This document shows, piece after piece, positions 20,093-25,500 of a DNA stretch of 25,500 nucleotides. Within the stretch, counting starts at the first letter, position 1; every line of letters begins with the position of its first letter. A model generated the notes under the pieces. It was not told the origin of the DNA. It ran no database searches and saw only the letters and a list, made by a program, of their open reading frames with translations. Location of the stretch: positions 1-25,500 of IMG/VR virus record IMGVR_UViG_3300028197_000141. One strand, written 5' to 3'. This DNA comes from a virus. Made by a program: the position numbers and the translations under genes.

Positions 20093-22423
20093 TTATGCCG
20101 TAAAAGATGCTCCAGTTGGTAAAATATTGAAATCTAACACGATGAATTCAGCAGTTTTAGTTGGTTGTAAGAAAATCTGTCCAGCCAATATATTTCTGTC
20201 GATTACATCTGGTGTGTTATTACTCTCGTCCATTACCACTCTAAATGCATATAATCCTTGTCTTTGTTGTATTCCTTCTAAATAAGGATTCACAGTATTT
20301 AAGAATTTACCTCTTGTTGTAGAAGTATTTTGTTCAAATACTAAGTATCTTGATGTTGAAGCAATATACTTCTTAACTTTAATCATCAATCTTCTAACAT
20401 TGATTCTATCAAGTGCCGATGCTTTATCTTGAAGAGTCTTTTGTCCAAATGCTACGATACCTTCTCCAGGGAACTGAGCGATTGGATTAATTTTTCCTTC
20501 ATATAATTCATCTCTTTCAGCGTGTGTTAATCTGTTTAGTACAGATATAGCACCTACTATACCACCTCTATTTAAACCTGCTGGTGCGAACCATTCGGCT
20601 GCAACTGCATCGTTAGAAGCATATATCCCAGGCATCAATACTGATGGTGGAACTGAAATTAACTTGTTAGTTCTTGAATCAATTGTTTTAACCCATGGGT
20701 AGTATGTACCTACGTAGTTAGAATCAACTGCTGCTCCTTGTTCGATAGCTTGTGATATTGAATCACCTGCTCCAACAGAATCACCTATGAAGAAACAATC
20801 TTCTCTAGCTTCACACATATCAACTACTTTGTCAAATACATATGAGTGGTGTCTTCTTACAATACCAGGTGCAGATACCAAGTTGATATCAAAATCATCT
20901 GGGTTAGATACTGCTGCAATTGCTTTCACATATGCAACCGAACCTACTGCAATTGAAGTTGATAAGTTAAACCCTTGTGAGTTACCACTTGATATATTAG
21001 CTCCCAAATCGATAGATATTGTTGGGTCTATCCCATCAAATCCACCTTGGAAACCTACTGTAAATTGTCTTTTGTTCATATCAGCTGAAAGTGAACCGGT
21101 TAGTTCATATCCATATGCCTTAGTTCCTCCAACTACATTTACTGTTCCATCAAATGCAAATACTGTGTTTCCACCTTGTGTTGCTGATGTTGGTATTGGA
21201 GATAAATAATTGTTGTTATCTATCTTAACTTGAGCAGTTTCTAAATCAATACCACTAAATGATACATTTTTAGATGCTGAATTTGCATCAGAACCAGTAT
21301 TAAATAATACTGATGGTACGATACTTTCTCCAAGTCCATGAGAACCAATATTACCAACGAAAATTGGATTGTAATATTTATCATGTGCAAATGGTCCAGC
21401 AACGATAGGATGAGCTCCCTCTGCAACACATTCTACTCTTACGAATTTAGAACGGTTAGGGTAATCACCATTTTCTGTTTGCTTTCCAAGTGTATCAATA
21501 ACTAAGTTTCTATCACCAATTACTTTTTTGATGTAATTAGGAGAAGCTGGGTCTAAGTTTAAGTTATTATAAGTTTCTAATACTGATTTTCTTTTATCCG
21601 TATCAGAGTATCCTCTAATCATTAATGAGAAGGTAGCGTAATCAGTTGCATTAGATGAACCTGCTGCTTTTACATTAAATATAGATACTTTATATTCTTT
21701 ATTGTATACAGTACCATCACCGATAGTATGTAATTTGAAAAGGTTGTGTCTTTCACCAGATACTAACTGAGATTGTATCCATGGTGTAGAAGAATGTTGC
21801 ATATCAAACGCTAATGCTTGGTCTGCTAATGTAATCATAGATACTTGTTCTTGACCATTTGAAATTGCAGTAGCTGCTGCTTTTTCAAAGTAGTTATATG
21901 CGTATCCATCTTTAGTTCCTCTTGGATTAATACCGAAAACATCACCTATATCATTTCCAGCTGAAGGATTAATAGAAGCTGATATTCCAGATTCTCCTAC
22001 AAGTGTTATTTCAAAAGCGGATGCTGATACAGATGCAGCTACTGCTGAACCTGCTAATGTTCCACTTCCTAAATGTGTTTCAAATAATGTTCCTATGATT
22101 TTTTGACCCGATACAGAACCACTACTTACTATAGATACTGGTGCTGTTTGGGTATACCCACCTTGATGACCAACACGAACAATAGTTACTGTTCCTGCTT
22201 CTCTAAGATAGTTTTGTACGGTATATCCTGTATAGTATGATCCATCAGGTGTACCGAAAATTTGTTCGAATTCCGATTGGGTGTTAACAATTGTTGGTAC
22301 GAATGCTGGTCCTTTGTGAAAAGGTCCTATTACAGCTGCTCCGATTTCTCCAACTCCTTGTGATAAGAAAGAAAGGTCATTTTCTCTCGTAAAAACCCCA
22401 GGTGATACAATTTTTTCTGCCAT
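20093..22423 (-). CDS. 18: Contractile tail sheath protein (gp18-like)
   Basis: A 776-residue protein opening MAEKIVSPGVFTRENDLSF, with IGAAVIGPFHKGPAFVPTIV and FEQIFGTPDGSYYTGYTVQNYL shortly after, the standard start of T4-type sheaths. The conserved C-terminal domain is also present: RLTHAERDELYEGKINPIAQ, INVRRLMIKVKKYIASTSRY and NILAGQIFLQPTKTAEFIVL. The middle, about residues 100-500, is Gly/Ser-rich and variable, as expected for surface-exposed protrusion domains. It is longer than T4 gp18 (659), implying an enlarged outer domain. The tube gene follows within 60 bases. A strong AAGGAG lies before the ATG. Confidence 0.95.
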   Translation of the reverse strand: MAEKIVSPGVFTRENDLSFLSQGVGEIGAAVIGPFHKGPAFVPTIVNTQSEFEQIFGTPDGSYYTGYTVQNYLREAGTVTIVRVGHQGGYTQTAPVSIVSSGSVSGQKIIGTLFETHLGSGTLAGSAVAASVSASAFEITLVGESGISASINPSAGNDIGDVFGINPRGTKDGYAYNYFEKAAATAISNGQEQVSMITLADQALAFDMQHSSTPWIQSQLVSGERHNLFKLHTIGDGTVYNKEYKVSIFNVKAAGSSNATDYATFSLMIRGYSDTDKRKSVLETYNNLNLDPASPNYIKKVIGDRNLVIDTLGKQTENGDYPNRSKFVRVECVAEGAHPIVAGPFAHDKYYNPIFVGNIGSHGLGESIVPSVLFNTGSDANSASKNVSFSGIDLETAQVKIDNNNYLSPIPTSATQGGNTVFAFDGTVNVVGGTKAYGYELTGSLSADMNKRQFTVGFQGGFDGIDPTISIDLGANISSGNSQGFNLSTSIAVGSVAYVKAIAAVSNPDDFDINLVSAPGIVRRHHSYVFDKVVDMCEAREDCFFIGDSVGAGDSISQAIEQGAAVDSNYVGTYYPWVKTIDSRTNKLISVPPSVLMPGIYASNDAVAAEWFAPAGLNRGGIVGAISVLNRLTHAERDELYEGKINPIAQFPGEGIVAFGQKTLQDKASALDRINVRRLMIKVKKYIASTSRYLVFEQNTSTTRGKFLNTVNPYLEGIQQRQGLYAFRVVMDESNNTPDVIDRNILAGQIFLQPTKTAEFIVLDFNILPTGASFTA

Positions 22424-22873: not shown

Positions 22874-24187
22874 CTAACTAACTGTAAATGTTAGTGTACT
22901 TGAGTAGCTACTCAATAACCCATTTGTTGAGTATTGTCTTACTCTTGCATATCTTGTACCAGTTCCAATATCAAACGAATCTCCTATTTCTGTAGTTTGT
23001 AAAAATACGTTTGACCATAATGTTTCATTAACCAATGGTGAAGAAAAATCTGAATTGTTATCTATTTGTACATCGTATACATCATTTGTACCATCTCCGG
23101 TCCAAGATAATTTAAGAGTACCATTTGTCCATACTAATGATGTTGGTGCACTACCACCTGTTTCATCAGAATGTGAATTTCCTCCTTTATTATGAGTTAT
23201 ATACCCATTAACTAAATATGTATCATTTGTTTCAACATCAATTGAAACTATTTCAGTTGTTGAATTAATAGCAACTATAGAAACAACATCAACTTCAGTA
23301 ATATTACCTGAAACTTCTTTTATTAATTTATCGTTTGTATTAATGTTCATCATTTCTTTGAACCTATATTCACTATCACTACCATCCTTTACCAACATTG
23401 GGTGTTCACCAGTTGCAGTTACCTCTCCATCATTTATATTATAAATTCTACTAGCAAATGAATATGTTAAGTTTTCAACAGATACATCTTCTGCAGTTGT
23501 TGATAATGATGTAGCTGACCAATCTAGGAATGTACTTTCATCAGTACCTAATCCTCCGATTGAAAATCCTCTCAACTCATCTCCTTCTTCTAAATCCCCA
23601 ACTTCTATAATAGTACCATCTGAAAGTGTTACAGGTGAATCTACGGTTAAACATAATGCTGCTGAGTTTCCATCATATGAATCTACTGCAAAAACAGTTT
23701 TTCCGATATTTGTATTATATCGTGTTGCGTGGTCATTAAAACCATCATTAAATTTTCCATTAAGTGTATGTGACTGTGCACCTAATAAGGTTGTTTGTGA
23801 ACTTGCTCCTTGTGGGTTTATTGAACCAACTGTAATTACGGCAGTTAAATCTTGATTTGATGCTATACTTAAAAAACCAGCAGTATCTCCTGAAGAATTG
23901 AAAGTTGGAGTTACTGACCAAGTAAAGTTTTGATATCTTGAAGATATCTGTGTAAATTTAGAACCTGCTCCTGAGAAACTCATATCATATGTTTCATTAG
24001 TAGCTTCTACTGCATATGTAAATCCTCCCAAGGTTGAATCTACAGAATCAATTGCATAATCATCTAACTTTACAATAGTTCCTGCTGAACTATTTATTGC
24101 ATTTAATGATACATTCGAACTTTGAGTAATTCCACGTGCTCCTGCTAAACCATTTAAACTGAGTGTATCTCCTGAACTTCTTGCCAT
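22874..24187 (-). CDS. Probable virion protein with an internal Hint (intein-like) domain and a C-terminal Fn3-like domain
   Basis: A 437-residue protein in three parts. Residues 1-178 are Ser/Thr/Gly/Asn-rich and beta-like, as in appendage or decoration proteins. Residues 179-333 match a Hint domain: CLTVDSPVTLSDGT with Cys179 as first residue, VGDLEEGDEL, TGEHPML with the block B Thr259 and His262, and NDTYLVNGYITHN ending in His332-Asn333. No homing endonuclease is inserted. The residue after Asn333 is Lys, not Cys, Ser or Thr, so ordinary splicing is not expected; it is closer to an A-type bacterial intein-like domain. Residues about 347-437 (SLVWTNGTLKLSWTGDG, YARVRQYST) resemble fibronectin type III. 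A late-type motif lies 17 bases upstream. The virion role is inferred. Confidence 0.8.
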   Translation of the reverse strand: MARSSGDTLSLNGLAGARGITQSSNVSLNAINSSAGTIVKLDDYAIDSVDSTLGGFTYAVEATNETYDMSFSGAGSKFTQISSRYQNFTWSVTPTFNSSGDTAGFLSIASNQDLTAVITVGSINPQGASSQTTLLGAQSHTLNGKFNDGFNDHATRYNTNIGKTVFAVDSYDGNSAALCLTVDSPVTLSDGTIIEVGDLEEGDELRGFSIGGLGTDESTFLDWSATSLSTTAEDVSVENLTYSFASRIYNINDGEVTATGEHPMLVKDGSDSEYRFKEMMNINTNDKLIKEVSGNITEVDVVSIVAINSTTEIVSIDVETNDTYLVNGYITHNKGGNSHSDETGGSAPTSLVWTNGTLKLSWTGDGTNDVYDVQIDNNSDFSSPLVNETLWSNVFLQTTEIGDSFDIGTGTRYARVRQYSTNGLLSSYSSTLTFTVS

Positions 24188-24198
24188 GTTGTTGTTTC

Positions 24199-25197
24199 CT
24201 ATATATTATAAATATAAACTAATTCGTCTATCCACTTATCCTTATTTGTGAAATTTTCTTTCATATATGATTTTAAAGATAAGAACCATTGATTCTTTTC
24301 TTCATAAGGAGTATCCGTTAACTCTCTATAAATATCACCAAATTCTTTTTTAGTTGATGCACGATAAGGATAATTAAAATCTTTACACCAAGTTTTGTGT
24401 AAAATTGGTAATTTACCATAATCTACTGCTTCAAATATACCATATCCAAACGGTTCATTATTAAAACATGAATGTGAGATACCCCAATCCATATTATAGA
24501 ATGTATCTCTGTATTCAGACTTATAATGATAAGTTTTCATTTTACGAGTATCCATTTTCAATCCGTTTTTCCAAAGAACATTAAATTCACTTGAATTAGT
24601 GAATACATATGATGGAAGTCCATCTAAGTAACGTGGATTCTTTCTACCTTCACTTCTTGCTGCAAATCCAATTCGTTTTGAATCAGATAATGGTAAGTTT
24701 TGTTTAAATTCGTAAAAATTAGGTATATTTTTGTTTTCTATCAATATATCAAATAAACCAACCCATATAGAATGACTTGATATCTCATTTATTTCAGTTT
24801 CCCATACTGAATCCATATATGGGTGTTGTGCAAATGAACTATCATTTCCCATTGATGATTTTAATATATGATCTACTGAGTTATGTAATATGTTTGAATG
24901 TATTTTGTCTTTATTCTCTACTATTACTTTCATTGGAGTATAATGTCCATGTAATATATTAATTCTTCTTGCTCCGTTACATAATTCTTCAAATTTTTTA
25001 ATATCATCACCATGCCAATGAGCTTCTATTGGAAATTCATAATCTTCATGTCCTTTTGGTTTGTTTCTATGTAAAAGTAGAATAGGTTTTACCTTTAATT
25101 TAGGAGCAATTAACTCCATCCATAAATTTACCCATGTATCAGTACCAGCATTTACCCAAGGGCCACCACCTGTAGTATAATACACATCATATACCAT
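24199..25197 (-). CDS. GT-B-fold glycosyltransferase (GT4-like)
   Basis: A 332-residue protein. The N-terminal half begins DVYYTTGGGPWVNAGTD, a glycine-rich loop typical of GT-B sugar-transferring enzymes. The C-terminal domain has FAARSEGRKNPRYLDGLP, with Arg181 and Lys186 in the usual donor-phosphate position, and NEPFGYGIFEAVDYGKLPIL, where Glu248 and Glu256 form the E-x7-E motif of GT4 enzymes. No signal or membrane segment is present, so it should act in the cytoplasm. Substrates cannot be read from the sequence. Candidates are phage DNA bases, virion proteins or host glycans; the neighbouring genes encode virion-like proteins, which favours virion glycosylation. It starts 4 bases before the end of the preceding gene's stop region and its own last codons contain the next promoter motif. 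Confidence 0.78.
   Translation of the reverse strand: MVYDVYYTTGGGPWVNAGTDTWVNLWMELIAPKLKVKPILLLHRNKPKGHEDYEFPIEAHWHGDDIKKFEELCNGARRINILHGHYTPMKVIVENKDKIHSNILHNSVDHILKSSMGNDSSFAQHPYMDSVWETEINEISSHSIWVGLFDILIENKNIPNFYEFKQNLPLSDSKRIGFAARSEGRKNPRYLDGLPSYVFTNSSEFNVLWKNGLKMDTRKMKTYHYKSEYRDTFYNMDWGISHSCFNNEPFGYGIFEAVDYGKLPILHKTWCKDFNYPYRASTKKEFGDIYRELTDTPYEEKNQWFLSLKSYMKENFTNKDKWIDELVYIYNI
24205..24216 (-). promoter_or_regulatory. Late promoter-like motif inside the end of the glycosyltransferase gene
   Basis: Minus strand TATATTTATAAT, a variant with ten matching leading bases, encoding the enzyme's last residues (YIYN). It is 17 bases before ATG 24187; the leader contains AGGAAAC. Confidence 0.5.
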
Positions 25198-25201
25198 AAA
25201 T

Positions 25202-25500
25202 TTATTTTTTTACAATTATTTTTCCTACAAATGTAGTTGAGAATACAATAGTTACTCTGTTTGCTGAATTTGATGTTACTGATTCTGCTTGTTCTTGTTG
25301 TGAAGTTGAAGTATTCCAACATTGTACTATTGGATATTGTTCATTTAAGTTGTGGTCTACTGCATATGAAGATGCTCCACTAACTGTTTCTTTATGAGTA
25401 GTTAAATCTGTTATTTGTGAAGAACCACTAACGATTCCACTTGGAACACTTGTAAAATTACCATAATTTAGGTAATATGTTCCATCTTCACCATCTAATA
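25202..25500 (-). CDS. C-terminal end of an appendage/tail-fibre-like structural protein (runs off the window)
   Basis: The last 99 or so residues of a gene that begins beyond the window. The frame reads LDGEDGTYYLNYGNFTSVPS, then GIVSGSSQITDLTTH, and ends with SANRVTIVFSTTFVGKIIVKK and a TAA. The beta-rich, Ser/Thr/Gly/Asn-rich composition and the closing strand pattern are typical of phage fibre or appendage C-termini; the HNLNEQYPIVQCWN segment before the end also fits such domains. No enzyme motif is visible. It is followed 4 bases later by the glycosyltransferase start, so both are on one transcript. The fibre call is from composition and place only. Confidence 0.6.
   Translation of the reverse strand, partial: LDGEDGTYYLNYGNFTSVPSGIVSGSSQITDLTTHKETVSGASSYAVDHNLNEQYPIVQCWNTSTSQQEQAESVTSNSANRVTIVFSTTFVGKIIVKK

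Follow-up and report, generated by a model that had tools for sequence, protein, structure and literature searches.

Sequence comparison indicates that a Hint domain of the intein and bacterial intein-like (BIL) kind is a fixed rather than mobile part of a phage protein, that both of its junctions matter, and that the nucleophile absent from its +1 position is replaced by an invariant lysine. The last point is the strongest one, and was missed by the earlier note on this DNA. The window analyzed here is the whole stretch of 25,500 nucleotides that forms positions 1 to 25,500 of the IMG/VR record IMGVR_UViG_3300028197_000141. Taking sequence, predicted structure and analogy together, we consider it reasonably probable that this Hint is of the A-type BIL-like kind and capable of catalysis, and that it is permanently built into a protein, probably a tail-associated surface protein, from which it would remove itself.

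Genomic Setting

The window can be placed among the tail genes of a T4-like phage, because it holds a conserved cassette with tail sheath and tail tube genes. At the loci shown, the order of the cassette is conserved, namely the gene of a 332-residue protein, the Hint gene, the gene of a 99-residue protein, the tail sheath and the tail tube.

20093 to 22423, minus strand: tail sheath gene of the same cassette, downstream of the Hint gene (PHROG 23, Pfam PF04984/PF17482)
22874 to 24187, minus strand: open reading frame with Ig-like, Hint and Fn3 domains, 437 residues by translation
24199 to 25197, minus strand: cassette neighbor of 332 residues, upstream of the Hint gene and kept at all loci shown

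Ig-like and Fn3 domains are frequent on virions. The place of the Hint gene in this conserved cassette, upstream of the tail sheath and tail tube genes, together with its domain types, suggests that its product is probably a virion protein. The earlier note had proposed as much, and the proposal stands as reasonable, if indirect, on the cassette and the domain types; the only label “virion structural protein” (PHROG 38766) reflects the Hint domain, having been reached through this common domain from a different protein, and not through the rest of the protein.

Searches of PHROGs, Pfam and PDB sequences gave no match for the 332-residue neighbor. By eye, its sequence is putatively glycosyltransferase-like, and if so the Ser/Thr-rich parts of the Hint protein, Ig-like and Fn3, might be its substrates. 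The end of a further reading frame, cut by the edge of the window (25202 to 25498, minus strand), resembles tail fiber and head decoration proteins in their C-terminal parts (PHROG 21918, 16122, 2647).

The Hint Domain and Its Flanks

Translation and modeling divide the protein into the following parts.

23654 to 24187, minus strand: N-terminal part, residues 1-178, with a short helical lead and a probable Ig-like beta-sandwich (about 41-170), from AlphaFold2
23189 to 23653, minus strand: Hint (intein/BIL-like) domain, Cys179 to Asn333, 155 residues, from profile, predicted structure and conservation
23153 to 23188, minus strand: junction linker K-G-G-N-[ST]-[HF]-[ST]-D, residues 334-345, conserved and predicted to be disordered
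22877 to 23152, minus strand: Fn3-like domain, residues 346-437, matching the integrin beta4 Fn3 at Z 11.4 over 344-437

The Hint domain had been proposed in the earlier note, and is confirmed by translation, by profiles and by an AlphaFold2 model that matches BIL and intein structures. Translation also agrees with the claimed Cys179, TGEH block, terminal His-Asn followed by Lys, and length of 155 residues without an endonuclease, a length too short to house a homing endonuclease; the residue before Cys179, given earlier as Ala178, is Leu178. A search with HMM profiles had been suggested as a check. NCBIfam TIGR01445 (intein N-terminal region) gave a marginal match over residues 179-266 (3.9e-5, 24.5 bits, exactly at the cut-off of 24.5), and Pfam Intein_splicing a weak one below its cut-off (E 0.03, whole protein), while a profile of 27 relatives, compared with the PDB, matched BIL2 and the KlbA intein at E 2e-4. 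Pfam Hint_2 (PF13403) had no match on the window's record. The PT-HINT family PF07591 had no listed match for the window protein and none for its Hint domain at E <= 0.01, a threshold at which 12 of 27 family members matched it.

Structure prediction, also suggested earlier, yielded a horseshoe-like Hint fold of the Hedgehog/intein superfamily. The model of the full protein was built from 37 relatives (pLDDT 81), and Foldseek matched it to the Hint fold at E 3.1e-9. By VIA, model residues 174-336 were closest to BIL2 of Tetrahymena BUBL1 (Z 19.9, 138 residues, rmsd 1.7), with the BIL of C. thermocellum at Z 18.4 and inteins mostly at Z 13-18. As the overall pTM is 0.48, the model does not fix the mutual placement of the three domains.

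The N-terminal part, described previously as Ser/Thr-rich, is predicted to be a folded and probably Ig-like domain. Modeled alone with AlphaFold2, it reached pLDDT 83.7 and pTM 0.79; by VIA, its best match was the T5 pb6 tail tube (Z 6.7), followed by the Ig-like domain of the lambda tail tube (Z 6.2), which are weak matches and speak for the fold class only. The Fn3-like domain proposed to follow the Hint domain is borne out by the match to integrin beta4.

Both junctions are predicted to be disordered (residues 172-176 and 335-342, with pLDDT < 50 at 335-342). The N-terminal part ends in a conserved junction, V-D-S-Y-D-G-N-S-x-A-L178, in which the -1 residue is leucine in 97/97 distinct proteins, and G-G-N follows the +1 lysine in most of the 97. 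Junctions that are conserved though predicted to be disordered are as expected if the active site reads them.

Conservation of the Catalytic Residues and of Lysine 334

In IMG/VR, 164 stretches encode relatives of the protein, and the best 80 of these 164 span nearly its whole length. Conservation was assessed in sets of 81 sequences, 94 distinct DNA sequences and 97 distinct proteins.

23651 to 23653, minus strand: Cys179, predicted nucleophile of the N-S acyl shift, Cys in 81/81 sequences
23402 to 23413, minus strand: block B, T259-G-E-H262, with T, E and H unvarying in 81/81
23189 to 23194, minus strand: block G, His332-Asn333, predicted Asn cyclization, 81/81, with codons CAT/CAC and AAT/AAC both occurring
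23186 to 23188, minus strand: Lys334 (+1), where Cys/Ser/Thr would stand, 97/97 distinct proteins

All catalytic residues for cleavage at both junctions are present, and the domain is predicted from them to be active. C179, T259, E261, H262, H332, N333 and K334 show no variation in the 81 sequences, and across the 94 DNA sequences the codons of the catalytic residues and of Lys334 differ by synonymous changes only (for Lys334, AAA 86 and AAG 8). Among the three domains, Hint is the best conserved and Fn3 the least. Since the catalytic residues are invariant while their synonymous codons vary, selection appears to act on both half-reactions. The same pattern bears on the view that no processing occurs and that the Hint fold is an inert beta-rich spacer or has a structural role. 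This view is in line with literature searches, which gave no direct evidence of activity, and found neither biochemical or proteomic data for any family member nor mass-spectrometry data on jumbo-phage homologues. An inert spacer would lose C179, T259, H262, H332 and N333, yet these are precisely the residues that stay invariant, and we regard it as improbable.

One of the six patterns used to search IMG/VR contained HNK, so the search was repeated with the N-terminal domain alone. The Hint domain was found in 88/88 homologous open reading frames and HN-K in 87/87 complete ones, and no Hint-less allele occurred among the 88 homologues, all sampled from IMG/VR; the domain thus appears to be selected for, and not to be a passing insert. 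An origin of the +1 lysine as a chance or selection artefact was rejected, as the result persists with the N-terminal query and, for the second clade described below, with a Hint query cut before His-Asn. As to a cellular origin, the Hint profile of the window's family had no match in 84,980 bacterial and archaeal genomes. Among 50,697 records of phage isolates, there was no full-length homologue, and only Hints at 26-31% identity.

These searches weigh on the suggestion that the domain is a mobile intein, domesticated or degraded, that no longer has its endonuclease or a +1 nucleophile. The sequence is indeed mini-intein-like and reaches the TIGR01445 cut-off. Against this stand the presence of the Hint in every homologue, including those retrieved with the N-terminal domain as sole query, and the lack of any empty allele among them; strong purifying selection on the catalytic residues; and a location between domains instead of in a conserved active site. 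We therefore disfavor a degraded intein, and give it the smallest probability of all the readings considered.

A Second Clade of Phage Hint Domains

A basic +1 residue also marks a second clade of viral Hints. The query for this survey was cut before His-Asn, so that the +1 residue was not part of it. Among 100 distinct viral Hint domains in 81 open reading frames, +1 was Lys in 74, Arg in 24, Gly in 1 and Thr in 1, counts that do not represent independent events. A small bacterial control set of readable PT-HINT domains had A, R, D (four near-identical copies) and K (two) at this position. In a tree, the window's clade and the second clade lie well apart, and the Hints of the jumbo phage NCTB and of Erwinia phages, with Ala or Thr at +1, join the window's clade on long branches. 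The second clade has a few cellular relatives, and HN-K is seen in these too.

Second-clade Hints sit in long repetitive or tail-like reading frames. Tandem Hints are common, up to seven in one frame (1838 residues), often with a single lysine between the His-Asn of one unit and Cys1 of the next, and with a last unit that often has no His-Asn. Other proteins of this clade end 1-12 residues past His-Asn.

Several individual records of Hint domains are also of note. Arrays of four to seven Hints in one phage reading frame were seen at six loci, and the one with 1838 residues (L268) shares its contig with another locus (L262). Six phage proteins, of about 1012-1014 residues where complete, end in a Hint followed by HN-K-G-G-N and a stop, and one of them (L253) has a collagen-like start. 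In two pairs of loci (L241/L244 and L250/L265), the proteins are tail-tip-like, about 826-980 residues long, and carry a Hint with HN-K-G-G-N close to their N-terminus. In phage NCTB (L081, 1248-8507), three neighboring reading frames of the tail region are annotated as intein-domain proteins, and one of the three, a short frame without the Cys1 half, ends in HN-K-V-D. A relative of the window phage (276 kb, G501; L386/L387) has an extra reading frame with three Hints (HN-A, HN-R and HN-K) and a further Hint at position 80325; one match includes a TAA. HN-K Hints also occur in genomes of candidate phyla, at five loci (Nomurabacteria, SR1 and others). The SR1 group reads TGA as Gly, and the Hint reading frame in the SR1 record is broken under table 11, consistent with this code.

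The basic residues could also be read as a degradation signal. Lysine and arginine are secondary destabilizing residues in E. coli, and a cut before either of them, the +1 residues seen here, would expose a new N-terminus to the N-end rule pathway (Aat, ClpS). Several related Hint proteins end only 1-12 residues past the cut, leaving nothing useful to degrade, and the scheme presupposes a host that bears Aat; we find it very unlikely.

A Possible Self-Processing Mechanism

Under the accepted chemistry of inteins, the residues that do not vary are enough to form a thioester at Leu178-Cys179 and to cyclize Asn333. That the domain is active, that it acts while virions are assembled, and what becomes of the thioester are inferences, as follows. 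The Leu178-Cys179 bond would be converted into a thioester through Cys179, aided by Thr259 and His262. Asn333 would then cyclize with the aid of His332, cutting the chain before Lys334, and the Hint domain would thereby be excised. The thioester left on the Ig-like half could be hydrolyzed or captured by an amine, of which the simplest is the new alpha-amine of Lys334. Such a capture would rejoin the Ig-like and Fn3 domains with no need of a +1 nucleophile. The same has been proposed for type A BILs, which cleave at both ends and ligate partially by aminolysis, the free amine of the C-terminal piece attacking the thioester (PMC4031507). By analogy, the most likely course is that the domain removes itself and that Lys334 has a role, if only that of the new N-terminus.

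The main rival to this explanation is cleavage without ligation, in which the N-terminal thioester is hydrolyzed and the separated Ig-like and Fn3 halves have fates of their own, for instance when a domain is released from the virion or exposed on it. Cleavage products predominate for type A BILs (PMC4031507, PMC7664689), and ligation would be pointless in the tandem arrays of related phages and in proteins that end right after HN-K/R. Arrays with one lysine between units and ends 1-12 residues past His-Asn fit cleavage better than splicing, and we count them against our preferred reading. Cleavage alone leaves the lysine in 97/97 proteins of the window's family, and the Lys/Arg in 98/100 domains of the second clade, unexplained; we give it roughly one chance in three.

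The thioester might instead pass to a side chain, either of Lys334 or of a lysine in a neighboring subunit, to give a cross-linked virion protein. Lys-epsilon isopeptides are reported for Tetrahymena BIL2 (PMC8616854), the structure that best matches the model, and the +1 lysine is invariant in the window's family. Arginine often takes the +1 place in the second clade, and its presence in 24/100 domains implies that a side-chain amine is not generally required, which leaves attack by an alpha-amine unaffected; the closest jumbo-phage Hints even carry Ala or Thr. The complete absence of arginine from the window's family keeps an isopeptide conceivable there, and we judge this conjugation unlikely, if slightly less so than an inert spacer. 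Its broadest version, just as unlikely, would be that tailed phages hold a widespread Hint class with an obligatory HN-K or HN-R, in which the side chain of the window family's +1 lysine takes over the N-terminal half as a built-in isopeptide, making branched or cross-linked virion proteins without enzymes or energy.

Returning to excision of the Hint domain with possible rejoining of its flanks, the evidence suggests that phages with this protein cut or re-join it during maturation. T4 head maturation employs a protease. If active, the domain would give uncultured T4-like phages, a large group, a self-catalyzed step of maturation that does not use a head protease of the T4 type. Two separate clades with a basic +1 residue provide a clear rule, open to testing, for a Hint class without a described function, and active members would be candidates from nature for joining proteins with no Cys/Ser/Thr scar left behind.

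Comparison with Known Systems

Searches for Hint domains in virion proteins found no report, only inteins in terminase and other enzymes, in a literature that excluded most subscription journals. The closest annotated sequences are the Hints of jumbo-phage tail proteins (phage NCTB, Erwinia phages, PHROG 38766; 26-31% identity), which lie in collagen-like tail or structural proteins, at the C-terminus, and with Ala, Ala or Thr at +1. Pretoxin Hints (PF07591) belong to bacterial polymorphic-toxin proteins and have mixed +1 residues in the small control sample.

Class 1 mini-inteins (Ssp DnaB, gp41-1) share the fold and the residues of steps 1 and 3 with the window Hint, which differs from them in its +1 residue (Lys334, no nucleophile), in having no empty alleles and in lying outside a conserved enzyme motif; mobile insertion finds no support in IMG/VR, where 88/88 homologues carry the Hint. 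Inteins of class 2/3 have no Cys/Ser at position 1, whereas Cys179 is invariant, and B-type BILs have no intein-like block G, whereas His332-Asn333 is present and invariant. BIL2 of Tetrahymena BUBL1 (PDB 6y75, 6tmm), the best structural match, is similarly placed between two folded domains, but is eukaryotic, has ubiquitin-like flanks and only 22% identity, and, unlike the window Hint, has a reported activity, the ligation of a lysine isopeptide.

The closest likeness is to the A-type BILs (C. thermocellum BIL, PDB 2lwy). The window Hint has their fold, Cys1, TxxH and terminal His-Asn (81/81 sequences, and through 94 DNA sequences), no Cys/Ser/Thr at +1, no endonuclease, and flanks in a non-conserved protein; the resemblance, already pointed out in the earlier note, is backed by profile, structure and conservation. 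The window's family differs from A-type BILs in that +1 is always Lys and -1 always Leu, in its phage tail-gene cassettes, and in the fixation of the domain. By every feature tested, the domain is A-type-BIL-like: its kind is known, and its setting and +1 constraint are new.
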